Shown here: piece by piece, positions 5,559 to 30,816 of the stretch
Layout: every line of letters starts with the position of its first letter
Numbering within the stretch: position 1 is the first letter of the stretch
Assembly (NCBI GenBank): GCA_905221615.1
Contig: CAJNDT010006000.1
Location: 1 to 64,000 of the forward strand
Length of the DNA: 64,000 bases
Direction: 5' to 3'
Origin: Symbiodinium sp. CCMP2592
Lineage: Eukaryota; Sar; Dinophyceae; Suessiales; Symbiodiniaceae
Translations under genes and position numbers: made by a program
Notes under the pieces: model-generated
What the model saw: the letters and a program-made list of their open reading frames with translations, nothing else
The model's database searches: none
What the model was told of the DNA's origin: nothing

Positions 5559-5879
5559 TCCGTTATGAGAACAAACACAAGCTCTGCACGGATGTGGAGA
5601 ACCGTCGGGGCCTACATGATGCTTGTGGCGTACCACTGCAGGAATCAGGACCAGAGAATAGCCAGCGGGTGGTGGACCTCATTGAGCAGCTTTCGGACCA
5701 TCGCGACCGACGCCTACCTCAACGAGGAGACCGTCCTAGCTTTGCGTTCGACGATACCACTCAGGGCTACACCAATGCAGGCTATGAATGCATCGGCGGC
5801 GGAAGGCCAATCCGGTGCGGAATTCTCGACCTGATCCCAACCAAGGGGTGCAAGCTTCATCAACAATCGATGGGACATC
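5559..5879 (+). other. Linking segment with two competing open frames
   Basis: Between the TGA at 5556-5558 and the start of the Tpt1-like region two plus frames are open. One is in register with both flanking proteins and is interrupted only by TGA 5832-5834. The other (5549-5959) is hydrophilic and uninterrupted. I cannot tell which is translated. The segment is recorded because it is the joint between the Cys-rich protein and the phosphotransferase-like protein. It could be readthrough, a short intron or decay. Confidence 0.4.
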
Positions 5880-8651
5880 GTGAACGAAGTTGTCCTTCGC
5901 AACATCACCCGTCAGCGCAGACTAAACGCGGATTGGGCGCTATCATGCATCCAATCTGACCTGCGTCACAGAATCGCCAGGCGCCCAGGCTCGCAATGGC
6001 TTGACAACAGGTGCCAGGTAGCATTCAGCAGCGTCATTCGATGTGATGAAGGAGGGTGGGTGCTGATCGAAGACTTGGTGAGGCATGAGCAACTATGGAC
6101 CCATGAAAGCAGACGCATCACCGAAGCGGTATCATGGTCCGATGAGCAACAGAGGAAGAGAGTGTACAATGAAAGACTTCAGCTATTGTTCCAAGGGAAC
6201 ATGCTCGCAGCCACGAAACGCCACAAGGCCAAGATTCGGTTGCAGTTCCTGGGAGTGAGAGTGAAGGACCCCGGCGTGGAAACTCTTGGATCCGCAGGTG
6301 CGAACATGTTGGTATCGGTTCCTGACCAGATCACGGAGATCCAGAACAATGATCGTTGCCGGCACAACCAGAGGTACCTGAACGTTTGCAACGGCTGGGT
6401 GAAGCCATGGGCAGTTCGGGCTACGAGTGGTCACTCTGCGCACTCAGATCCCCAGAACAATTTGCTTCAGTTGGACAAGAACAGGTTCGCAATATCTCCA
6501 TCTATGACCCTTTTGCAACGTCTTGGAGGCGCGTTCCACGCTACGGCATGCCGCAACCTGGATTCCATTGTCACGCAAGGCATCATGCCTGGTTCGGAGG
6601 ACCCCGACGGGGACTTCGCCCATAGGCGCCAATTTCGAGGCAACCAAGGCGGCAGACTCCACAGCTATTGGGGGGTGTTTGCACCGTTCGATCACCGGAA
6701 TGCGACGACCAAGATGCGGGTACATGGACGCGATGCCAAGCACATGCCACTGGCGGTCCTTCATGTCCCATCGCAGGACCTTGCACGAGAAGATGGACGT
6801 ATCACAGACAGCGGCATCATGATCGTTGGCCGGACGATACCGTTCCATTTCGTCAAGGAGGTATGGTTTTGCGTCCCGGATCCCCAAGATACACACTCTT
6901 TCGCTCTGGTGGAAAAGATCTACGATGAACGATTGGAGAAAGAGCTGGTGTTGGACTACAATGCATCACCGTTGCTTCCTGAGTTCGAGAGATACCGAAC
7001 GCCAAGCAAGATCATGGAATTGCTTTGCGAGATGCCTCCTGGACCCCACGACACAAGCAAGGAGCAGATCATTCGAGACCTCACGACTGTCCTGGAGTCC
7101 CACAGGGAGAACACGGTTCGGCATCACTACATGGACAAAGGGATCAAGTTTGTCATCAAGAATTGGCGACCCGAAGACCTACGCAGAGACGAAGATGGAA
7201 GGAGAATGAGGGTGTGCCCGGCATGCTACAACATCGTTCCAGCATGCTTCTCCCGATGTACGTCTTGCTGGTCACAGTTCGTTTCTAGCGGATATTACCA
7301 AGGTTCTCCACAACGGGAGACTCCTACGGAGATCCCCAGTGACTTCATTGCTCAGACAATGGAAGCCGCGGCAGCAGCAGTGCCTGAGGCGCCCGAAGAG
7401 GAGCAGGAAGCCATGGAGGTAGAGACCGTTGCGGAACCTGAGGAAATCCCAGAACCATCTGTCATCGCGGAGGACGATCCAGAACAGGAAACTGATGAAG
7501 AAATGGACATAGAGCCAGGAGAGGACTTTGATGACGCAGTACCAGATGCAGTTGCACAGGAACGCCGTCCCGTCTTCATTACCGGCCAGTCTTTGAACAT
7601 CGATCCTGAGCTACAACTCGCACGTACCGCCATGCAGCCATCCTACTACTCAGGGAAGCGAAATGCCCATTGCATCGACGCCAACATGGTCGCTCTTTCG
7701 TATATGGCTTTCGTGGTGTGCAGGACTATCTACAAGGCTTGGTCAGGCTTCGCGAAGTGGGCTACTATGCCGTTGTTTCAGATGAAGGAGAATTTCGCGC
7801 TTGGCCAACGCTATGATGTGCTTGGAAAGTGGGGATCATTGGCTGTAGTGGACAGAGAGACTGGTGTGAGCAGGGATGTGACTGATGAGGAGATCATTCG
7901 CTTTGCCAAGGAACCTGAGAACTTCAAGCAGTATGAGCCCAACGGGACTTACACTTTGAAGCGCTTCCGGACGAATCAGATGCTTTCGTTGATTACACGG
8001 GGAGCCAACATGATGGGAATTGGCAGGGACAACTTCAACCCTACTACGTACTTGAAGAGCAACAGGGATGAAGACGTGAAGGCTATGCACTTTTGTTGCC
8101 TGAACGTCCTGTGCGAGGTGATTCCGATGGTGACGGGACACCAACAATTCTCAGTGCTACGACCAACGCCAACTGGACCGGTGGACTTCTTGTACATCGA
8201 CCCCGTCGGTATCCTGCTGACTCATTCCGATCATTCAGTCCAGACCATCGGGTTGCTGGTGGACCACAATGTGCAAATGCCTGCGCATTTCATGGACAGA
8301 TTGAACAGATCCAAGGCTGAGAGACAGCAAAACCCGACGACCAAGCGTACTGAAGCCCTACACCACATTTCGGCCGCTGACTATCTCCCTCCAGGTGGTA
8401 CTTCCATTCTGGACACGCCTGTCACAACGGAGGAATGTGCAAGCGCTTCTTCGGCCAAGGGACCTTCAAAAGGGCGTGAGAGAACCGGAGGTGAACAGCA
8501 TGGAGGCTGGAACGCCAACACCTACTATGACTACACCGCCGGCAAAGGCCGAAACAAAGGCAAGGACAAAGGAAAGCAAAGGGAACAGTATCCAGAGGAA
8601 AACCTCCGGCCCTGGGACCGCGATCCTGCGACCACGCGAAGATGGAGATGA
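5880..8651 (+). CDS. Tpt1/KptA-like RNA 2'-phosphotransferase domain protein
   Basis: An open frame of 923 codons whose first start-like codon is GTG 5880; the frame is open upstream to 5835. The N-terminal third matches the Tpt1/KptA layout. An LRH motif lies at residues 28-30 in a LSxxxxxLRHxxxRRP context, followed by a DEGGWVLIEDL segment (56-66), RATSGHS at 180-186 (family pattern R-A-x-Q-G-H-S), FHATACRNLDSIVTQGI at 219-235 (family H-G-T...I...G-L), and an Arg/His-rich RVHGRDAKHMPLAV segment near 280. Tpt1 enzymes remove a 2'-phosphate from spliced tRNA using NAD+. Arg-His, Arg and a further Arg are the known catalytic residues and plausible counterparts are present. Downstream are a CPAC...CTSC cluster near 448-465, an acidic Glu/Ala-rich linker (490-560), a second unknown globular region (580-800) and a Gly/Lys-rich tail. 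The substrate here is unknown. The domain call is fairly strong; activity is inferred. Confidence 0.72.
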   Translation: MNEVVLRNITRQRRLNADWALSCIQSDLRHRIARRPGSQWLDNRCQVAFSSVIRCDEGGWVLIEDLVRHEQLWTHESRRITEAVSWSDEQQRKRVYNERLQLLFQGNMLAATKRHKAKIRLQFLGVRVKDPGVETLGSAGANMLVSVPDQITEIQNNDRCRHNQRYLNVCNGWVKPWAVRATSGHSAHSDPQNNLLQLDKNRFAISPSMTLLQRLGGAFHATACRNLDSIVTQGIMPGSEDPDGDFAHRRQFRGNQGGRLHSYWGVFAPFDHRNATTKMRVHGRDAKHMPLAVLHVPSQDLAREDGRITDSGIMIVGRTIPFHFVKEVWFCVPDPQDTHSFALVEKIYDERLEKELVLDYNASPLLPEFERYRTPSKIMELLCEMPPGPHDTSKEQIIRDLTTVLESHRENTVRHHYMDKGIKFVIKNWRPEDLRRDEDGRRMRVCPACYNIVPACFSRCTSCWSQFVSSGYYQGSPQRETPTEIPSDFIAQTMEAAAAAVPEAPEEEQEAMEVETVAEPEEIPEPSVIAEDDPEQETDEEMDIEPGEDFDDAVPDAVAQERRPVFITGQSLNIDPELQLARTAMQPSYYSGKRNAHCIDANMVALSYMAFVVCRTIYKAWSGFAKWATMPLFQMKENFALGQRYDVLGKWGSLAVVDRETGVSRDVTDEEIIRFAKEPENFKQYEPNGTYTLKRFRTNQMLSLITRGANMMGIGRDNFNPTTYLKSNRDEDVKAMHFCCLNVLCEVIPMVTGHQQFSVLRPTPTGPVDFLYIDPVGILLTHSDHSVQTIGLLVDHNVQMPAHFMDRLNRSKAERQQNPTTKRTEALHHISAADYLPPGGTSILDTPVTTEECASASSAKGPSKGRERTGGEQHGGWNANTYYDYTAGKGRNKGKDKGKQREQYPEENLRPWDRDPATTRRWR

Positions 8652-9094: not shown

Positions 9095-9237
9095 TCAATG
9101 CCCATAGCTAAGTGCTATAAGTGTCTTCTATCCTGACCAATCAGAGCTATCCCGTTGCACAGACGAACCGCCGCCGGCAGTGAGTGAAAAAGGAACGGCC
9201 GCCGGTTCTGCCTGCATAGGATTGCACGTGTGGAAGT

Positions 9238-9935
9238 GTGAGAGAGACAGGGTCCAGTCTGTGGAGAGTGCAAGCCAGCCACACCTACATTCATTACAGC
9301 TCTGGTGGGGAGAGCAGCAACCTAGTCGAGATCAATCCCCCACGCACAAGCAGACGCCTGTACAGTGTTCTTTGTTCATACACTAAAGGAAGGCCGTACC
9401 GAGTTGTAAAGCATGTAGCTGAGGAGAACGGTATGGAAGCTTACCGTATGCTACTCAAGGAATATCAACCAACGAATCGTGCGAGATCGTTGGAGTTGTT
9501 GCACAACATTCTCAACTACAAATTCGCTCACAACAAAGGAATTGCTGAGAATATCCTCGAATATGAGGAACACATCGAGAAGTACGAGAAGGCTACTGGA
9601 GAAAAGGTACAGGAGAATTTGAAAGTATATACTCTTATTCAAGGTATGAAACCTGACGTGAAAAGGCACTTGTTGCTCAACATGGATGAGAAGACACAGT
9701 ACAATACTCTTCGTCAGTACCTTGTGAACTATGAGTCAACCGAGCGTTGGACTAACTCTTTGGCAGCCCAGCAAGGAACCCCTCACCGAACCACAACAGA
9801 CTTGATCGACAAAGGTGATGACCATGGTGGTCTTGCAGCAATGGATATCAACCAAGCATGGTACAAAGGAAAGAAAGGCTATGGCAAAGGTTATGTTCAC
9901 CATAAAGGCAAAGGTAAAGGAAAAGGCAAGAAAGT
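9238..9935 (+). CDS. gag: Copia Gag (capsid-like) in its own frame
   Basis: The recognisable Gag region begins near LYSVLCSYTKG (about residue 41) and continues through GMEAYRMLLKEYQP and ARSLELLHNILNYKF, a helical pattern of Ty1/copia capsid proteins. It ends in a Gly/Lys-rich repeat tail (KGKGKGKGK). The first 40 residues look unrelated and may be leader DNA, so the true start is doubtful. At 9918-9935 coding moves to the -1 frame, which then carries more Gly/Lys/Arg/Phe repeats and the zinc knuckle. The open continuation of this first frame to 10353 is a shadow. Confidence 0.75.
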
Positions 9936-12900
9936 GGAAAGGACTTTGGAAAAGGTTACGGCTTTGACAGCAAAGGCAAAGGTAAAGGTAAAGGTTTCGG
10001 AGGTTTTGGCAAAGGCAGAGGTCGAGGCAACTGGAAAGGCCGAGGTAGAGTTTTCAGAGGTTACAAAGGAAAAGGCAAAGGTCGAGGAAGAGGTTTCTTC
10101 AGACACAAAGGAAAAGGTAAAGGCAAAGCCCAAGCAGCTACAGGAGTGTGTCACTACTGTCATAAGTATGGACATTTCGAAGCACAGTGCAGACAGAAGA
10201 TGCGTGACATGGGTTATCAGGCCAGGAACGTTGACCTTGAAAACCAGAGCGAGCAAGCAAGCACTACAGCTACTTCAACTCAGGCCCCTTCGTCATCCAA
10301 CAAGACCTCAACAAGCCAAAGCCAAGCAAGCCAAGGAACCAAAAGACCAGTGATTAGGATGGTCTCCATGTACCACATGGGAGACGAGCCCACAAGCTTT
10401 CCGGAGGAATTCGAGATGAGCGAGAACTCTGAAGAGATAGAGATTGAGTACTTCGGAAGAGTTTTGCGGGTTGTTGGTGAAGAAGTTCAGGAAGAGAGGA
10501 GTGAGACAGAAGAGTTTTGGATTGGTGATGAAGATGATGAGTTTCAGGACTGTGATGAGGTGAGTGATGATGAATGGTTGCAATGGCATCTAGAAGGAAC
10601 TCCGATAGGAACTCAGGATCGTGGATACTACTTTGAGTGTCCCAATGGATGTCATGAAACACCGTGGCACCCAAACATGCAGGAATGTGAGAACGGATGT
10701 CACCATCCTCCTAGAAGGAACAGAGTAGAGAGAACAGCACCCTCAAGGACCATCACCAGGTTTGCGCGTGCAGCAAGGAACGCAAGAAGTCGAGAAATCG
10801 AGGTCGTGCTGGATTCAGGAGCCGACATTTCGTTGGCACCGATGTGGATGAAGAAGTATGGAAGAAAGGCACCCAACACTACCAAGGTAGTTTTGCGAGA
10901 TGCACAAGGATCTCGGATTAAGGTTTCAGATCAAAGGATCATTGAAGTTGAGTTTCGGGATGTTCAAGGAAACATTGTGAAGGTTGAAGAAGTGTTCTTG
11001 ATTTCATCGGTTGTGCACCCTCTTTTGGCAGTAGGGAAACTGTTGAAGAAAGGCTGGGAGTTCAGAGATGGAACAGCAACAGGCACTTTCCTAACAGAAG
11101 GAACAACCAAGATCGCAGTGAACTACAACAACAACTCACTTACAACAAAAGCCGTTGTGAGAGCAGTCAACTGGGAAGCAGAAGCAAAACCTATCCCTAT
11201 GTACTTGTGCGAGAACTTGAAGGAACTCATTGAAGAACAGCGTGTAGGTTGGACCAACTGGCGAGACCCTTACCAAGTCCACTTCAGCCTAGGAACCTCA
11301 GAACACGTTGATACTTACTTGATGTTTCCACCAGGAAAGTTCGCATATCGAGCAGTGCTTATTGAGGATGATGATCAGTGGTATTTGTTGCATCACAGCA
11401 TCATGTTTGAGGAACTTGAAGAACCGTTTGGAACAATCTTCGATGGCAGTAAGGAATACCGCACGCTTACGCTAGTATCGCTCAAGGAATTTCCGCTGAA
11501 CCTCATAGGCACCCCCAAGGAAGATGAGGATCGAAAGATGTTTGAAGAGTACACTGAGGATGCATGGTCAATCAGCATGGATGGCACTACACTCACGAGG
11601 TACCATAACTCGTTGAGAAAGACTTTGTTCAATCCTCGAGATACCAATGACATTCCAGTAGACATTGGAAACCTCAAGCCAGACAGGTACACGTATGGAG
11701 AAGAACCGATCAATAAGGATTTCTTTGAGGATGACAAGTTCTGGACTTTGGATGAGCCTCACAGAGACCCAGAACCACTAGGAGGTTTATCCTGGACAGG
11801 ACGGAGTGTATTCGAACTCATTGAACCAGTGAACCCCAAGGCCAGAAGACCAAAACAGAAGGTTCATCAACTGGACACGATCCCAGAACAGGAAGAAGAA
11901 CAGGAAGAGACCTCAGAGGCCCAAGCACCAGCACACAGGCATGAACTGGCAGGAGAATTGTCTTTTACATTCAACGGTCATGAGTACAACCAGCAGAACA
12001 GCCTCAAGGCCCTGAGAGAGTTGTGCAAGGAACTAGGAGTCTCAAAAGCTGGCTCTAAGCAAGAGATTCTCAGAAGGCTCAGTAGATCCATTATGGAAGC
12101 AGAAAGGCATATGGAACTTGTTTCAGGCCAGAAGAAGTACAAAGAGTTTCTAGAAGCTGAACCTCTGAAGGTACCCAAACAGCCAAAGCCGGAGGAAGTC
12201 GCAGTGCATAATCTCACACACTTACCTTATGCATCGTGGTGTCCGACGTGTGTAGCATGCAAAGGAAAAGAGTCTCCACACCTTCGTGAGAACCCAGAGA
12301 AGGAAAGATCTTCAAGACCAACTTTCTGTATGGATTTCTGTTTTACAGGAACAAGTCATGATGAGGCACCAGCGGCAGTAAGTCTTGTGTGTGTTGATTC
12401 TTGGAGTAGGAACATGGTCTGTATCCCGACAGCATCTAAAGGAAAAGATCTTGTAGAGCACCTTTGCGAAGGAGTGACCTACTTGAGTACTCAGCTTGGA
12501 TATGGAACCATTAACTTGAAGGCAGACAACGAAGGAACAATGATGAAGCTGAAGCAGGTCATCCAGAAGCAGCGAGCAGCTTTAGGTCTAGGAACAGTCT
12601 TGCAGGATGCAGTCAGTGGCCAGAAGGAAACCAACGGCATGGCAGAGAGAGCAATCCAGACCATTAGGAGACAAGGAACAACCCTGATTAGGCACCTTGA
12701 ACACAGAACAGGAACATATATTGCTCATACTCATCCAATCTTCAGTTGGGCTTTCAGGCACTCGGCATGGACCTTGAACAGGTACCATCGCCATTCCTCC
12801 ACAGGAATGACTCCGTATGAATTTATGGCAGGAAGGCCTTATGAGGGCCAACTCGCCGAATTTGGCGAATCACTTTTGGTTTTGACCAATCGTTCAGGAA

Positions 12901-15900
12901 CACGTGGCAATAGGAAAGGTGACCCTATTTGGTTGAGAGGAGTGTTTTTAGGAAAAACGGACAACAACCTCTTCATCACATGGCACATGGACGGCATCAA
13001 GACAAGCCGTAGCGCAAAACGTTGCTTGGAACACTTCGACGTGAAAGGAATAAGTAGCGTAGGAATTCATACTTGGGAAGTGAAGCACACTACACTGGCA
13101 ACAAGGAACATTCCCAGGAAGAATATTCCAGGACCAATTGCAGAGGCGCCACCTGTCATGGATGGAGCAACTCAGGAACAGTCGGTTGAGGACTCGGCAC
13201 CTTCCGCACCTTCAGGACCGATCGCAGGACCGATTGTCATCCAAGGCGGGGACTCTGCAGGGAAGTCAGGACCTACTAGGACAACCTACCTAGAGAGCAA
13301 AGCGAAGCAGGCACAGAGCAAGAGAAAAGCAGAAGAAGAACTTGAGCAGGAATACGACCAAAACAAACACGACGAAGCAGCTTCAGACCCAACGTCTTCT
13401 AGTAGCAGCAGTAAGGAAATGGACGCAGCCTCAGAAGAAGAACTCATCCCAGACAGCGCAATGGCAAGTGAGCTTCTTTCAGCTAGAGGACCAGCACCTC
13501 TTAGGAAAATGGAATTTGACGATGTAGGAACAGGTTCCAAGATCCCGAAGATTGATTCTCCGAAGAAGAAGTACCCTCCGTTCAACGTAGGAAGAGTATT
13601 TGAGCACAATGATGAAGAACTACCTGAAGCAGAACCAGGTACAGAGGACATTTTCTGGGAAGATTCATATTCGGACATTGGCGATTCCGATGAGGAACAA
13701 GACATCTTCAAGAGCGAAGATTCTGGACCTCCAGAAGTTGCAGAAGCCCAGTTGCAGGAACTGGATCGTGAGGCGATGCTCACAGAAATCAACAGACTCA
13801 CCGAGATGAAGGCACTGGCAAGGAAACCCTTGCAAGAACTCGAGAGAGAAGAGGAGAGAGAGACAGAAGAAGAAGAGAGCAACCAAGGAACAAAGTGGTT
13901 GACGACGAAATTCGTCTTCGATTGGCGATTCAGGAACGGCCGATGGATGCGGAGAGCTAGGTTAGTAGCGAGAGAGTTCAAAGGAGCAGAAGTAAGGAAC
14001 GACACGTTTAGCCCAGCGACGAGCGCATCGTTGGTGAGACTTATCCCTATCTTGGGATTACAACAGGAACATTCCCTGTACTCCATTGATGTCAAGGACG
14101 CATTCTTGCAGGTACCACAAAGGACCCGATGTGCATGTCAATTCCCAAAGGAATATGTGGATCTGTTTGGCGACCAGGACCCCAGTTGTAGGAACGAAGG
14201 TTTGTTACTGCTGAGAGTACTTCCAGGACAGCGAGATGCAGCACTACTATGGAGCGATCATTTTGCAGGAACCCTCAAAGAGCAGAACTTTGATAGGAGC
14301 AAAGCTTGCCCTACTTTGTTTCGTGACGACAGGAACAGCATACTTGTTGTGCATGTAGATGACATTCAGGCAGCAGGGAAAACAAGGCACCTAGAGCCCA
14401 AGCTAGGAAAGCTAGGAGAAACCTACGAGCTAAAGGTTGAAGGCCCCTTCTTGACAGAGCAGGAACTTGAGGTAGGAGAGTCACACCAGACAATCCGATT
14501 CCTTAAAAGGAAATTCAGCTACCACAATCACGAGCTCCACATCACGAGTGACCCGAAGTATCTTGTGAAGCTTAAGGAAGAACTGAAGCTTACCAGCAAA
14601 GCCTCGAAGCCAACTCCGTGCACCCAAGAGTCGCAGGAACAGGACAACACTCAGACCTTGAACCAGGAACAAGCGGCATCGTTCAGGAAAAGCGTTGGCA
14701 TACTCTTGTATGTCAGTCAGGATCGCCCTGACGTGCAGTTTGCCGTGAGAGGTTTGGCCTCCAAGATGTCGGAACCAACACATGGTTCTTGGAAACACTT
14801 AGTCCACCTAGTGCAGTACATGTCGAGAACTGAAGGATACCATTTAGTGTACAGGAAAACGCCTAGAGGACTCAGTAATCTCCATGAATCCATCAGGAAT
14901 GGTAACTACGACTTTACAGGAATAAGGCCCAAGGAACACCACCTTTTGGAAGTCTTCAGCGATTCAGATTGGGCAGGAAAGAAGGACACAAGGCGCTCAA
15001 CATCTTCAGGAATTGTTTGCCTAGACGGTCAGTGCATTTACTCCTTTTCTAGGAACCAGAAGTCGGTTAGCTTGAGCAGTGGTGAAGCAGAGTACTACGC
15101 AGGAGCGTCAGCAGCGTCAGATTCTATATTGTTGAAGGAAGCAGTAGAATTCTTGACCAGGAAACAATGCAAGGTACACTTGTACATGGATTCTTCTGCA
15201 GCTAGAGGAATTATTACAAGGCAAGGTGTAGGAAGAGTCAAGCATTTGCAGATCAGGACCCTCTTTCTTCAAGACCTCCACAAAGAAGGAACAATTAGTG
15301 TTCACCCAGTAGGAACCAAGGAGAACACAGCCGACATAGGTACCAAGCCCCTTTCAGCGAAACGTATCAGACTGTTGTTGCACTGGCTAGGTTTTCAAAC
15401 CAGCGAGAACGAACCAGTAGGCAGAGAAGAGCTCAAGGAACACAAGGCCCAAACACAAGCTAAAGCAGTTGTAAGAATGATCAAGAGCCCAGGAACTTTG
15501 TCTTTTGCAGCTTTGTTGTTTGCAGGAATTTCAGGTATTTCAGACAGTCTTCAGATTCAGAGTTTCAAGGAACAGTGTTTTGAGAGTTGTGTTCAGGAAG
15601 AAGAGTTTCAGCCAGACTTTCAGGAACATGTTTTCTGTTGTGCAAGTGCATGTGAGCAGGACGGCATGTGCAGTGACACGAGTGCATGTGAGCTAGGAAC
15701 GTCTGCAGGAACAGCGCATGGAACAACATGTTGTGAGATGCTTTCGCAGCTCAAGGAACTCTGCGGAACACTCGCGGAACGCTCAGGTATCCAGGAACTA
15801 GTTCGCCCGGTAGCAGAAGGTCAAGGAACCTTAGAACGACAGAGTCAAGGAACCTTAGCAGCCATGGAACCAAGCGCGAGTTCGAGCAAGAACACAGCGG

Positions 15901-17894
15901 AAGTTTTCAAGGAACTGGAAATTTTGAAGGAAGCGGCGACAGCCTTAAGGAACGCTTCTGATGAAAGGAACTTGATCGCGGAGTCGATCAGGAAGAACAC
16001 AGAGGAAGCTGCGCGTTTGCGCAAAAGCCAGGAACACGTGGCTGGTTGTGTGGAGTCCTTGACAGGACAAATCTACGACGTCAAGCACCAGGTTCAGGAA
16101 ATGGCCGAACAGAACGACAGAGACCGGCAACAAGTCAAGGAACACATGGCCTTCGTCCTAGGTACATGTGACGCCGTAAAGGAACAGCTGAACCAGATGA
16201 TGCAGGACTTCTACGAGCAGCAGCAAGAGGAACAAGAAGAAGAGGAAGAAGACGAAGAAGAACAAAGGAAAAGAGAAGCCAAGGACCGAGAACTAGAAGG
16301 TGAACTACGTCGTGAAGGACACGGACAAGGAACAGCACCGTCGAGAGCTACGTCACCTACGTCCCAGGAAAGGAAGGAATATTCGGACCGAGGCTACTTC
16401 GAGGGCATCCAGGAACGAGAGCAGGAAGCCGGCAACGAGAACGAGGCCTACGTCAACAGCTACGTTGGAGGAGAAGATCCCGGGGAGTACCCCGATGAAG
16501 GAACAGCAGCAGCAGCAGCAGAAGAGGAAGAAAGTGAGGAAGCAAAGGAAGAGAGAAGAAAGAAGAAGATCGCGGAGATCAACGCCAAAAGCAAGCAAAG
16601 GCTCAAGGAAAAGGAAGAGGAGAAGAAGCTCTTTCCGTACCCCTACGACTACGCCAGCGAATGGAAGGAATACTCCGAGAACGGCGAGATCTACAGGCAA
16701 CACAGAGTTACAGGAGAAAAGCAGTGGGTCGACAAGGACTACACGTACAAGCACGAGAAAGGAACAAAAGGAAAGAAGGAAGGAAAAGGAAAAGGAAAGC
16801 CAAAGGCAAGAGCAGAAAGCACAGGATTTCGACCTCGAGATGAAGATGATCGCAAATACTGGGAAGAACAGGACAGGATCTCAAAGGAACAGAGAGAAGC
16901 AAAAGCAAAAGCAGAAGAGGAGAAGAAGGCAAAAGAGGAGCAGATTGCCAAAGCAAGGTTGATTCTGGAAGCGGCAGCAGAAGAGCAGGAGAAGAGAGAC
17001 AAGGAAGCAGCAAGGCAGGAAGCAGCCGCAGCCGCCGAGAGAAGGCGAGAGGTAGAAGCAGCAGCCAAAGCCAAGGCAGAGAGAGAAGCAAAGGAAAAGG
17101 AGGAGACCGAAGCAGCAGCAGCAAAGGAGGCAGAGGAGAAAGCAGCAACCGCAGCAGCCAAAGAGGAGAAGGAAAGAAAGGAGCAGGAGAAGAAAAGAAA
17201 GGAGAAGGAAGCCAGGAAGAAGAGAGAGGAAGATCAAAAGGCAGCGTCAGCGTACATTGCCAAGAAGGAAGCAGAAAAGAAGGCAGCAGCAACAACAGCA
17301 ACAGGATCAGGTGAAGCAGACAGGATCCAGAAGCTTGAAGAAATGATGAAGGAGATGATGAAGGAACGCAAAGAGGATAAAGAAAGGATTGCAAGCCTTA
17401 CACAGGAGCTTGAGAGCAGAGGATCAGCAGCCGGGTCGCAGGCACCCACAGAACCAGACACAACACCAGCAAAGGAAGAGGAGAAGCCAGAAGCAAAAGG
17501 AACAGGAAAAGCAACAGGAAAGGAGCCACCGAACGTCACACAGCACAAGCAGAAGGAAGAAGACAAGGACGACCCAGAACTGTCCGCCAAAGGACCAGTG
17601 AACGAAGCATCGTTCATGAAAGGAAAAGGAAAAGGAGAGTTTGAAGGAAACTGGTTTGCAGTCTACAGTTTCCAGAACAGGAAATACCAGTGGAAGTGGA
17701 ACGAAGCCAAGACACAGTGGTACTGGTATTCAGGATCAAAGGAAACAGGTTGGAAAGCAGCGTCAAAGGACAAGCAAGGAAAAGAAAAGTGCAAAGCGCA
17801 AGCAAAGATGAAAGAAGAGTGGCTAAAGGAACAGCTTCAAGACCAGAAGGAAGCTAAAGACAGCGAAGAGGAAGGCGAAGTAACCTTCCAGTGA
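9918..17894 (+). CDS. pol: Copia Pol polyprotein with long C-terminal extension
   Basis: The frame opens right after a TAA at 9915. Residues are numbered from codon 10146. The zinc knuckle (CHYCHKYGHFEAQC, pattern CX2CX4HX4C) is at the start. Next come the protease active site DSGA (223), a SAP-like helix pair (620-649), the integrase zinc site HNLTH...CPTC (688 on) and the integrase triad D730, D794, E834. Reverse transcriptase carries the catalytic HVDD at 1403-1406, and RNase H starts near SDSDWAG (1606). After about residue 1755 comes an extension unusual for Copia: a short hydrophobic stretch, a Cys-rich block, Lys/Glu/Ala coiled coil and two Trp/Tyr-rich segments resembling WW modules. 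The polyprotein would be matured by its own protease. No internal stop or frameshift is visible. Confidence 0.9.
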   Translation, partial: RKRQESGKDFGKGYGFDSKGKGKGKGFGGFGKGRGRGNWKGRGRVFRGYKGKGKGRGRGFFRHKGKGKGKAQAATGVCHYCHKYGHFEAQCRQKMRDMGYQARNVDLENQSEQASTTATSTQAPSSSNKTSTSQSQASQGTKRPVIRMVSMYHMGDEPTSFPEEFEMSENSEEIEIEYFGRVLRVVGEEVQEERSETEEFWIGDEDDEFQDCDEVSDDEWLQWHLEGTPIGTQDRGYYFECPNGCHETPWHPNMQECENGCHHPPRRNRVERTAPSRTITRFARAARNARSREIEVVLDSGADISLAPMWMKKYGRKAPNTTKVVLRDAQGSRIKVSDQRIIEVEFRDVQGNIVKVEEVFLISSVVHPLLAVGKLLKKGWEFRDGTATGTFLTEGTTKIAVNYNNNSLTTKAVVRAVNWEAEAKPIPMYLCENLKELIEEQRVGWTNWRDPYQVHFSLGTSEHVDTYLMFPPGKFAYRAVLIEDDDQWYLLHHSIMFEELEEPFGTIFDGSKEYRTLTLVSLKEFPLNLIGTPKEDEDRKMFEEYTEDAWSISMDGTTLTRYHNSLRKTLFNPRDTNDIPVDIGNLKPDRYTYGEEPINKDFFEDDKFWTLDEPHRDPEPLGGLSWTGRSVFELIEPVNPKARRPKQKVHQLDTIPEQEEEQEETSEAQAPAHRHELAGELSFTFNGHEYNQQNSLKALRELCKELGVSKAGSKQEILRRLSRSIMEAERHMELVSGQKKYKEFLEAEPLKVPKQPKPEEVAVHNLTHLPYASWCPTCVACKGKESPHLRENPEKERSSRPTFCMDFCFTGTSHDEAPAAVSLVCVDSWSRNMVCIPTASKGKDLVEHLCEGVTYLSTQLGYGTINLKADNEGTMMKLKQVIQKQRAALGLGTVLQDAVSGQKETNGMAERAIQTIRRQGTTLIRHLEHRTGTYIAHTHPIFSWAFRHSAWTLNRYHRHSSTGMTPYEFMAGRPYEGQLAEFGESLLVLTNRSGTRGNRKGDPIWLRGVFLGKTDNNLFITWHMDGIKTSRSAKRCLEHFDVKGISSVGIHTWEVKHTTLATRNIPRKNIPGPIAEAPPVMDGATQEQSVEDSAPSAPSGPIAGPIVIQGGDSAGKSGPTRTTYLESKAKQAQSKRKAEEELEQEYDQNKHDEAASDPTSSSSSSKEMDAASEEELIPDSAMASELLSARGPAPLRKMEFDDVGTGSKIPKIDSPKKKYPPFNVGRVFEHNDEELPEAEPGTEDIFWEDSYSDIGDSDEEQDIFKSEDSGPPEVAEAQLQELDREAMLTEINRLTEMKALARKPLQELEREEERETEEEESNQGTKWLTTKFVFDWRFRNGRWMRRARLVAREFKGAEVRNDTFSPATSASLVRLIPILGLQQEHSLYSIDVKDAFLQVPQRTRCACQFPKEYVDLFGDQDPSCRNEGLLLLRVLPGQRDAALLWSDHFAGTLKEQNFDRSKACPTLFRDDRNSILVVHVDDIQAAGKTRHLEPKLGKLGETYELKVEGPFLTEQELEVGESHQTIRFLKRKFSYHNHELHITSDPKYLVKLKEELKLTSKASKPTPCTQESQEQDNTQTLNQEQAASFRKSVGILLYVSQDRPDVQFAVRGLASKMSEPTHGSWKHLVHLVQYMSRTEGYHLVYRKTPRGLSNLHESIRNGNYDFTGIRPKEHHLLEVFSDSDWAGKKDTRRSTSSGIVCLDGQCIYSFSRNQKSVSLSSGEAEYYAGASAASDSILLKEAVEFLTRKQCKVHLYMDSSAARGIITRQGVGRVKHLQIRTLFLQDLHKEGTISVHPVGTKENTADIGTKPLSAKRIRLLLHWLGFQTSENEPVGREELKEHKAQTQAKAVVRMIKSPGTLSFAALLFAGISGISDSLQIQSFKEQCFESCVQEEEFQPDFQEHVFCCASACEQDGMCSDTSACELGTSAGTAHGTTCCEMLSQLKELCGTLAERSGIQELVRPVAEGQGTLERQSQGTLAAMEPSASSSKNTAEVFKELEILKEAATALRNASDERNLIAESIRKNTEEAARLRKSQEHVAGCVESLTGQIYDVKHQVQEMAEQNDRDRQQVKEHMAFVLGTCDAVKEQLNQMMQDFYEQQQEEQEEEEEDEEEQRKREAKDRELEGELRREGHGQGTAPSRATSPTSQERKEYSDRGYFEGIQEREQEAGNENEAYVNSYVGGEDPGEYPDEGTAAAAAEEEESEEAKEERRKKKIAEINAKSKQRLKEKEEEKKLFPYPYDYASEWKEYSENGEIYRQHRVTGEKQWVDKDYTYKHEKGTKGKKEGKGKGKPKARAESTGFRPRDEDDRKYWEEQDRISKEQREAKAKAEEEKKAKEEQIAKARLILEAAAEEQEKRDKEAARQEAAAAAERRREVEAAAKAKAEREAKEKEETEAAAAKEAEEKAATAAAKEEKERKEQEKKRKEKEARKKREEDQKAASAYIAKKEAEKKAAATTATGSGEADRIQKLEEMMKEMMKERKEDKERIASLTQELESRGSAAGSQAPTEPDTTPAKEEEKPEAKGTGKATGKEPPNVTQHKQKEEDKDDPELSAKGPVNEASFMKGKGKGEFEGNWFAVYSFQNRKYQWKWNEAKTQWYWYSGSKETGWKAASKDKQGKEKCKAQAKMKEEWLKEQLQDQKEAKDSEEEGEVTFQ
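12003..12092 (+). other. SAP-like DNA-binding motif within Pol
   Basis: The segment LKALRELCKELGVSKAG with a following QEILRRLSR matches the SAP helix-extension-helix pattern (L..L...c..lgl..sG.K..L..Rl). SAP modules bind AT-rich or scaffold DNA in chromatin proteins. Here the module sits just before the integrase zinc site, where it could help target-site tethering. That role is inference. Confidence 0.55.
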
Positions 17895-18345
17895 AGCAAA
17901 GGAACCACGAGCAGTACTGAGGCCAGAGAGCCGAGGAAAGAAGCAGCAGGACACAGGAACCGTGGCACAGCCCTTTTTGTTTCTGTGGTGATCTAGGTAA
18001 AGTGCAGGAACGTCTTTTGTACAGTCGAGCAACCTTGGAGAGGATTGCGAGTGAACGTGCGCATACGTTTGCGATGAGGAACAGTGTTTGTTTTGCAAGT
18101 GAAAAGGAACTGCAGCGTGTTTACTGTTTGTCAAGGAAAAGTCGGAGTCACCTCAGTCGAGGAACTTTCGCTAACTCCGAAGGCGGGGTGTTAAACATTC
18201 TGCCAGGAACAGTAACACAGCTAGTGCAGTACAGTTAATGTACAGGAACAGCCGTCACGCACACGCGACGTGCAGGCTCGAGACCCCAGGACACACCGTG
18301 CCCAGGAACAAAAGTGTCCGACAGTCTTTGTGGGTAGGAACCCTT
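17895..18345 (+). repeat. 3' noncoding region with ten AGGAAC motifs
   Basis: Exact AGGAAC occurs at 17900, 17955, 18006, 18077, 18105, 18160, 18205, 18244, 18304 and 18336, a spacing of 28-71 bases. The region encodes nothing I recognise. By chance a 6-mer would be expected about 0.1 times here. The motif is equally dense in the upstream pol gene and drops out after 18341, so it marks the element and not the neighbourhood. Confidence 0.85.
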
Positions 18346-18385
18346 AGTGAAGCCCGTTCTTTAACAGCGCAGGGAGGCGGCACCT

Positions 18386-29917: not shown

Positions 29918-30816
29918 GGCCAGGAGCCAGCCGACGGGGGAGTCCGAGCCTGCGAAGAAGTCCGGGCCTCAAGTCACGACGGTGGCGGTCGGCGGCTCTC
30001 TTGTTGGATTCCGAGCTTAGGCCAAGCAAAAGAAATCTGACGGCCAGGAACGAGCCGTGCAAGGAGTCGGAGCCTGCCAAGAAGTCCGGACCTCAAGTCG
30101 AGACGATGGCGGCCAGTCGTTGGTTCCTGCCAGCAACCCAGCAGAGGACCCTGCACGGATCCTCGTGCTTGCTTTTCATGTGTGTGCAACGAAAGAAATC
30201 CGACGGCCAGGAACGAGCCGTCGAAGGAGTCGGAGCCTGCCGAGAAGTCCGGACCTCAGGTCACGACGATGGCGGCCAGTGGTTGGCTCCTGCCAGCAAC
30301 TGTGCAGACGACCCTGCATGCATCCCCGTGCTTGCTTTTCACGTGTGTGCAACGGCGTTCCCGCCCGCGACCCAAGGTGCGTGAAGGCCAGGAACGAGCC
30401 GTGGAAAGAGTCGCCGCGGGAAGAGTCGGAGCCTGCCAAGAAGTCCGGACCTCAGGTCACGACGATGGCGGCCAGTGGTTGGCTCCTGCCAGCAACTGTG
30501 CAGAGGACCCTGCATGCATCCTCGTGCTTGCTTTTCACGTGTGTGCAACGGCGTTCCCGCCCGCGACCCAAGGTGCGTGAAGGCCAGGAACGAGCCGTGG
30601 AAAGAGTCGCCGCGGGAAGAGTCGGAGCCTGCCAAGAAGTCCGGACCTCAGGCCACGACGATGGCGGCCAGTGGTTGGCTCCTGCCAGCAACTGTGCAGA
30701 GGACCCTGCATGCGTCCTCGTGCTTGCTTTTCACGGGTGTGCAACGGGGCTCCTGCCCGCGACCCAAGGTGCGTGAAGGCCAGGAAGGAGCCGTGGAAAG
30801 AGTCGCCGCGGGAAGC
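29918..30816 (+). repeat. Tandem array of six expanding units (124-196 bp)
   Basis: Units begin with ggccaggaacgagcc-like sequence at 29918, 30042, 30205, 30386, 30582 and 30778, giving lengths 124, 163, 181, 196 and 196 plus a partial unit. Shared blocks include gagcctgccaagaagtccgg and gatggcggccagtggttgg. Later units carry extra blocks (ccgcccgcgacccaagg and gagtcgccgcgggaag). The progressive gain of blocks suggests stepwise unequal exchange. The array sits inside the transposase-like gene and remains partly open in several frames. Confidence 0.88.

Follow-up and report, generated by a model that had tools for sequence, protein, structure and literature searches.

A dense one-strand AGGAAC array in a copia-type retrotransposon of Symbiodinium sp. 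CCMP2592

Why should a single hexamer, AGGAAC, crowd the coding and noncoding parts of a retrotransposon on one strand, and what might read it? We addressed this question in a window of 64,000 nucleotides of Symbiodinium sp. CCMP2592 (contig CAJNDT010006000.1, positions 1 to 64,000), in which an earlier note had described the hexamer as saturating a Copia pol gene and its 3' noncoding DNA. The saturation is real and stronger than that note had it.

The retrotransposon copy and the distribution of AGGAAC

The element and its parts are located in the window as follows:

9346..18366, + strand: Ty1/copia-type LTR retrotransposon copy, 5'-truncated, without 5' LTR and gag start
9349..9861, + strand: gag part (tblastn to residues 67-227 of relative P0005, 46.6% identity)
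9918..17894, + strand: long ORF of 2658 aa comprising gag end, pol region with reverse transcriptase (RT) and C-terminal extension; its 62 AGGAAC are spread over all three phases
10149..10190, + strand: zinc-knuckle-like CCHC stretch CHYCHKYGHFEAQC, read from the translation; candidate nucleic-acid-binding part of Gag
13890..14384, + strand: reverse transcriptase domain RVT_2 (PF07727; Pfam E=3.9e-9, ORF residues 1325-1489)
15357..17891, + strand: C-terminal extension of 845 aa behind RNase H, with a full-length match in 4 of the best 120 relatives (P0001-P0004)
15436..16185, + strand: dense cluster of 16 AGGAAC over a poorly conserved protein linker
17895..18188, + strand: 3' untranslated region (UTR), 6 AGGAAC
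18179..18188, + strand: polypurine-like tract GAAGGCGGGG immediately 5' of the 3' LTR, its putative role taken from LTR elements generally
18189..18366, + strand: 3' LTR of 178 bp, TGTTAAACA...TTTAACA, 4 AGGAAC; no difference from the 5' LTR of copy C2 (100% identity)

The RT is of the copia type; pol domains other than RVT_2 were assigned by homology only, and a Pfam search returned no integrase profile at E 0.001. The gag part and the long ORF lie in different reading frames. The stretch CHYCHKYGHFEAQC, which yielded no profile match, has the look of a CCHC zinc knuckle. For the 845-aa extension, the search for known domains gave no Pfam family above the cut-off; its sequence (window 15357-17891) contains a hydrophobic segment (TLSFAALLFAGISGI), coils rich in lysine and glutamate, and two blocks rich in aromatic residues.

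A complete copy, C2, spans 10,978 bases with an LTR pair of 178-180 bp (100% alike) and is 99.1% identical to the window copy over 9,022 aligned columns. The LTRs, i.e. the direct LTRs of the C2 pair and the same LTR at 18189-18366 of the window, have TG...CA ends. Target-site duplications of 5 bp, TGTCC flanking the C2 copy and CAGCC flanking copy C103, were read on these two copies, the window copy being truncated at its 5' end. In the C2 copy (reverse strand), an open frame starts at the end of the 5' LTR, the last stop lying inside the LTR, and begins with a hydrophobic, membrane-like segment containing GT pairs coded by AGGAAC. The RT part occurs at no fewer than 80 places of the 1.1-Gb genome with 99-100% protein identity, the window's own included. 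Outside the element, the window ORF 5835-8648 has a weak match to RNA 2'-phosphotransferase (Tpt1/KptA, PF01885; E=5.6e-6), and repeats of 163 and 196 bp in tandem lie at 30029-30815, with four AGGAAC at 30046-30586.

The whole window contains 95 AGGAAC and 11 copies of the reverse complement GTTCCT. Within the element (9346-18366) the counts are 74 and 0, and in the remaining 54,979 bases 21 and 11; the complete C2 copy carries 96 and 0. The rarity of the complement and the strand specificity, both noticed before, thus hold. Thirty further copies each have 35-50 sense-strand AGGAAC in 4,629 bases, GTTCCT being absent in 29 of them and present once in the other, and six diverged copies that were read are AGGAAC-dense, too. 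From dinucleotides, 6.6 sites would be expected in 9191-18345, where 75 are found, although the one at 9191 does not belong to the element, whose first base in this copy is 9346. Our counts reproduced the 16 sites in 15436-16185 and the 10 in 17900-18341 given in the earlier note, and corrected its single site in the Gag part 9238-9930 to two (9566 and 9774). The 3' edge that it had placed at 18341 is indeed sharp, but it marks where the 3' LTR stops, at 18366. Clustering of AGGAAC is not in itself peculiar to the element: three AGGAAC spaced 26-56 bases apart (start to start) gave 12,089 genome matches versus 3,280 for the backward control, and clusters outside the element, among the matches listed, are mostly short repeats such as AGGAACCCTTA. 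An example of such short repeats is C3:441333-441734.

Along the element, the linker (15430-16200) carries 20.8 sites per kb, the stretch 17895-18345 carries 22.2 and both LTRs of the C2 copy have 22.5 each, compared with 4.8 in 9918-12000, 7.9 in 12000-15430 and 5.3 in 16200-17894. Judged from the alignment, the linker, the UTR and the LTR, where density is highest, are under little protein constraint. However, the lysine-rich end of the extension after 16200, although poorly conserved as well, carries no more than 5.3 sites per kb, so density is not a simple function of coding freedom.

Spacing was assessed as well. In UTR plus LTR of the window, the gaps (55, 51, 71, 28, 55, 45, 39, 60 and 32 bases) are more even than chance (P=0.0005), and in copy C1657 (55, 51, 53, 48, 53, 45 and 39; CV 0.11) the test gave P=1.5e-5, its range having been bounded by the outer sites after these were seen. 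Two sites, the final ones in the LTR of the window, are absent from the C1657 copy, and one UTR site is displaced by about 20 bases in C1657 and C3268 relative to the window, C2735 and C5383. Spacing is moderately even in the linker (P=0.013), uneven in UTR plus LTR of C5383 (118, 87, 66, 22 and 93) and not regular over the whole element (CV 0.96 vs 0.93). Neighbours less than 25 bases apart number 7 in C2 versus 15.4 after jittering (P=0.0014), or versus 11.9 (P=0.05) when overlapping placements are ignored.

As the motif spans the LTRs and the entire element in fixed orientation, it might act in the DNA or cDNA, as oriented sites for reverse transcription, integration or chromatin comparable to oriented repeat motifs of bacteria. 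Nothing specific speaks against such a role, but the orientation suits RNA at least equally, and bacterial uptake sequences occur in both orientations (PMC2346458), while the reverse complement is absent here. We regard a DNA-level role as unlikely.

Codon usage, composition and the encoded protein

The 62 AGGAAC of the ORF at 9918-17894 fall into all three codon phases, as had been stated earlier: 12 are read as AGG-AAC, 25 as xAG-GAA-C and 25 as xxA-GGA-AC. Codon shuffling, the check that had been named beforehand, gave a mean of 23.1 sites (sd 3.9, max 36; 1000 shuffles). Stricter versions, each run 2000 times, raised the mean to 29.9 when the first base of the next codon was kept, to 37.1 (sd 4.0, max 51) when both codon boundaries were kept and to 28.2 when shuffling was confined to blocks of 100 codons. 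Composition alone is ruled out by these four synonymous-shuffle controls. Synonymous codon placement therefore explains 25 to 39 of the 62 sites, depending on the control, and the remainder is attributable to codon usage and to amino-acid order, which is itself bent. AGGAAC has the top z among all hexamers of the ORF under synonymous shuffling; in eight other ORF stretches of the window, the best hexamers with at least 5 copies all remain at z <= 6.0. In the noncoding stretch 17895-18345, 10 sites compare with a mean of 0.23 and a maximum of 4 in 2000 dinucleotide shuffles. Several simple origins were rejected: no tandem array covers the noncoding cluster, no Rfam family matched the window at gathering score, and the 12 bases preceding the sites are without the pyrimidine-rich stretch of a splice acceptor. 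Predicted accessibility of AGGAAC in RNA folding did not differ from that of control hexamers (median 0.095 vs 0.105, P=0.65).

The protein follows the motif. Relative to local shuffling of residues, the ORF contains 36 GT versus 10.8 expected, 13 RN versus 6.0 and 50 [KQE]E[HQPRL] versus 24.3, and 62 of the 93 peptide places that could be written through AGGAAC are so written (25 of 30 xGT, 12 of 13 RN, 25 of 50 [KQE]E[HQPRL]). The earlier claim that the protein is enriched in GT, RN and KE/QE through the nucleotide motif is borne out; such dipeptides are thus not safely read as protein function. Summed over P0001-P0004, the same trace amounts to 70 versus 22.4 (xGT), 33 versus 13 (RN) and 157 versus 74.9 ([KQE]E[HQPRL]).

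The exactness of the word bears on what might read it. One-letter neighbours in the wobble class show either no copies or no excess (GGGAAC 0 vs 6.9 expected, AGGGAC 0 vs 4.5, AGGAGC 8 vs 9.6), and bases flanking AGGAAC differ only mildly from background. The circular RNA ciRS-7 carries many short identical sites with unlike flanks, and the array resembles it in this respect, as would be expected of a sponge or target array pairing with a small RNA of seed GUUCCU. The missing G.U-wobble neighbours and the near-background flanks argue against pairing of this kind, which we consider highly improbable; that no literature link between Symbiodinium and GUUCCU was found carries little weight. Since G.U-wobble neighbours are not enriched, a protein is favoured over base pairing as the reader.

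The main rival to the reading preferred below, doubtful in our eyes but to be taken seriously, is capture of a host SR-type protein: a purine-rich, enhancer-like array would cause the 11-kb unspliced RNA to be treated as an exon, kept whole and exported. A review tabulates SRSF1 motifs of a similar type (RGAAGAAC, AGGAC[A/G][G/A]AGC, GAAGAA and GGAGGA) and states that intronless RNAs can acquire NXF1 through SR proteins; AGGAAC is, however, contained in none of these listed motifs, and purine-rich sites may also hold intronless RNAs in the nucleus (PMC9022966). Moreover, the hexamer is stricter than SR motifs, the neighbours AAGAAC and AGGAAG occurring 13 times versus 13.0 expected and 34 times versus 24.9, respectively. 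In favour of SR capture, the core AGGAA is enriched in both sister families that were read.

Conservation between copies and relatives

Over about 7 kb of gag-pol, copies C2 and C5383 have 89.7% identity. Inside the AGGAAC of C2, 6 of 112 third codon positions differ between the two, and outside it 527 of 2229 (P=3e-7); in a codon-matched control, 6 of 103 differ, where the corresponding codons outside the motif would predict 19.2 (P=4e-4). Per site, synonymous differences amount to 0.09 in the motif and 0.37 outside. AGGAAC is intact at 47 of 56 sites between the two copies versus 54% for all hexamers (3836/7048) and ranks first for intactness among the 38 hexamers that occur 12 times or more, several of the next-ranked overlapping it. 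Of the site positions in C2, C103 and C5383, 42 of 61 are common to all three. Third-position variants among 31 close copies are likewise scarcer inside the motif (7/94) than outside (201/1454; P=0.048). The few third-position differences within the gag-pol motif indicate selection on the nucleotide motif. The nucleotide-level selection proposed earlier is therefore upheld by three lines: the excess over codon shuffles, silent-site conservation in gag-pol and the bending of the protein towards GT, RN and [KQE]E.

The fast-evolving 3' part behaves differently, so that the positions, which the earlier note had proposed to check by alignment, are conserved in gag-pol but not above their surroundings here. 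Across 3' extension and UTR/LTR, window and C103 share 14 sites and have 8 and 9 private ones; 14 of 22 AGGAAC are intact in C103 versus 62% of other 6-mers, and column identity is 0.83 inside the motif versus 0.87 outside. Polarised substitutions between window and C1657 destroyed 10 sites (9.9 expected) and created 1 (1.4 expected), and five other copy triplets agree with this background rate. Differences to C5383 in UTR plus LTR affect 13 of 60 positions in sites and 87 of 407 outside. Even among near-identical copies, the site at 16760 is missing in 22 of 30 and that at 15824 in 16 of 28. Single sites in this part are thus replaceable or decaying. Five subfamily copies that are 80-97% alike nevertheless have 19-23 AGGAAC each in the 3' stretch, and density being kept despite site loss suggests replacement over longer times. 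The C103 copy is 96-97% alike to the main family in gag-pol but 85-90% in the 3' part and looks, from its sequence, like a recombinant or a copy with a replaced 3' end.

Could the array be a functionless by-product of context-biased mutation or micro-insertion? The element is A-rich (33.7% A), the 3' sites decay like their surroundings, and 6 of the 17 sites private to window or C103 are at gaps. The other 11 are aligned substitutions, which leaves the repeated micro-insertion suggested earlier poorly supported; among the sites found in C103 only, 4 of 9 involve gaps. Creating substitutions are not in excess, and silent-site conservation in gag-pol as well as the even UTR and LTR spacing in the window and C1657 copies speak against a by-product. 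In the UTR stretch, 10 of 12 AGGAA continue as AGGAAC, a final C that purine-directed mutation would probably not produce. Composition and micro-insertion explain the array poorly, and the by-product reading, already hard to hold, appears quite unlikely.

Beyond the family, Symbiodinium was the organism named for Copia relatives among the matches listed, e.g. P0068, a "Copia protein" of Symbiodinium microadriaticum. A search with the extension returned P0001-P0004 plus parts in the S. microadriaticum gene models P0121 and P0122. The protein trace was scored in the best 120 of 210 relatives found. It is clear in P0001, P0003 and P0004, less so in P0002 and at most weak in P0005; P0006 and P0007 lack it, and it is no trend in the 113 further relatives (z > 3: GT 0, RN 1, KE class 1). 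Relatives whose extension is only 34-43% identical have kept the GT/KE trace (P0001, P0003 and P0004 clearly, P0002 hardly), and many peptides of the motif change in place between the protein relatives. Extension and trace both occur in P0001-P0004, i.e. in one clade, so their association counts as a single event. In viral and genome contig sets, no related locus was confirmed.

Two sister families show a weaker enrichment of the core AGGAA. In 1,500 bases read of the type on C3290, with 43-50% protein identity to the AGGAAC clade, we counted 3 AGGAAC, 24 AGGAA versus 10.4 expected and 13 AGGAAG versus 5.9. The ORF of the P0005-like type on C4927 has 25 AGGAAC versus 12.5, 99 AGGAA versus 62.2 and 40 CAAGAA versus 21.1; its 3' noncoding part (9195-9770) has 8 CAAGAA versus 0.69 and 6 TGTACA versus 0.11. 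The picture in C4927 is mixed, as GAAGTT and TTCTAC reach higher scores in its ORF and TGTACA does so in its 3' noncoding part, where TGTACATA is similar to a Pumilio site. The AGGAA core thus appears to have been enriched before the AGGAAC form arose.

Possible reading of the array and its known counterparts

Exactness on one strand, conservation at silent sites and density from LTR to LTR argue for sense-strand recognition, most simply as RNA. Our tentative first choice, which we would put somewhat short of an even chance, is that AGGAAC forms a distributed recognition array of the genomic RNA, most likely for RNP assembly or packaging. The sites, short, identical and numerous, recur about every 50 bases in linker, UTR and LTR and every 120-200 bases over most of the coding part; a sequence-specific protein would bind them and thereby coat or select the element's RNA, with Gag or the C-terminal extension of the clade as candidate readers. 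Action as RNA, reading by a protein and use in packaging are all three inferred; packaging or RNP coating of the element's own RNA ranks above other uses since the signal is confined to the element's clade and extends from LTR to LTR. A bolder and rather doubtful extension holds that lineage-specific sense-strand address words saturate the RNA, override the choice of codons and amino acids and drift between sister families. Each lineage's RNA-binding protein would then recognise its own RNA by the family word, i.e. AGGAAC in the present family, AGGAA together with AGGAAG in the C3290 type and CAAGAA/CAGGAA in the P0005-like type.

One six-letter, one-strand word has apparently shaped an 11-kb mobile RNA, its protein included. 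As a packaging or identity mark, it would explain in a simple and testable way how a retrotransposon distinguishes its RNA from that of the host, and would provide a clear case of protein sequence (GT, RN and KE pairs) following a nucleotide signal.

Searches of open-access papers gave, among the matches listed, no description of an AGGAAC array in dinoflagellate Copia retrotransposons. With other Ty1/copia elements of Symbiodiniaceae, the element shares the RVT_2 pol, the LTRs and the size of the family; it differs in its additional 845-aa extension and in the trace, as 113 of the best 120 relatives are without such a trend. DNA uptake sequences of Neisseriae and Pasteurellaceae are likewise short words of high copy number that also occur within reading frames, where one orientation is commoner, but they are present as motif and reverse complement throughout the genome (PMC2346458), while the AGGAAC array is confined to one strand of one element family, and occurrence together with the reverse complement was not found in the C2 copy (96 vs 0). 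Exonic splicing enhancers and SR sites are short purine-rich sense-strand words in coding RNA as well (PMC9022966); here, in contrast, a single exact hexamer runs through UTR and LTR too, at a density that changes the protein.

For picornaviruses, HBV and other RNA viruses, a short recognition motif in several copies along the RNA has been described (PMC6281560, PMC7612645), and multiple copies along the RNA are what the element has in common with these dispersed packaging signals, at 96 in 10,978 bases. The viral signals covered by these sources are motifs of sequence and structure, in HBV stem-loops with RGAG (PMC6281560, PMC7612645), whereas the element would present an exact linear hexamer, with no sign of structure, for putative recognition in an LTR retrotransposon. 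Dispersed packaging signals are the nearest known principle, and the AGGAAC array is a real and unusual feature.
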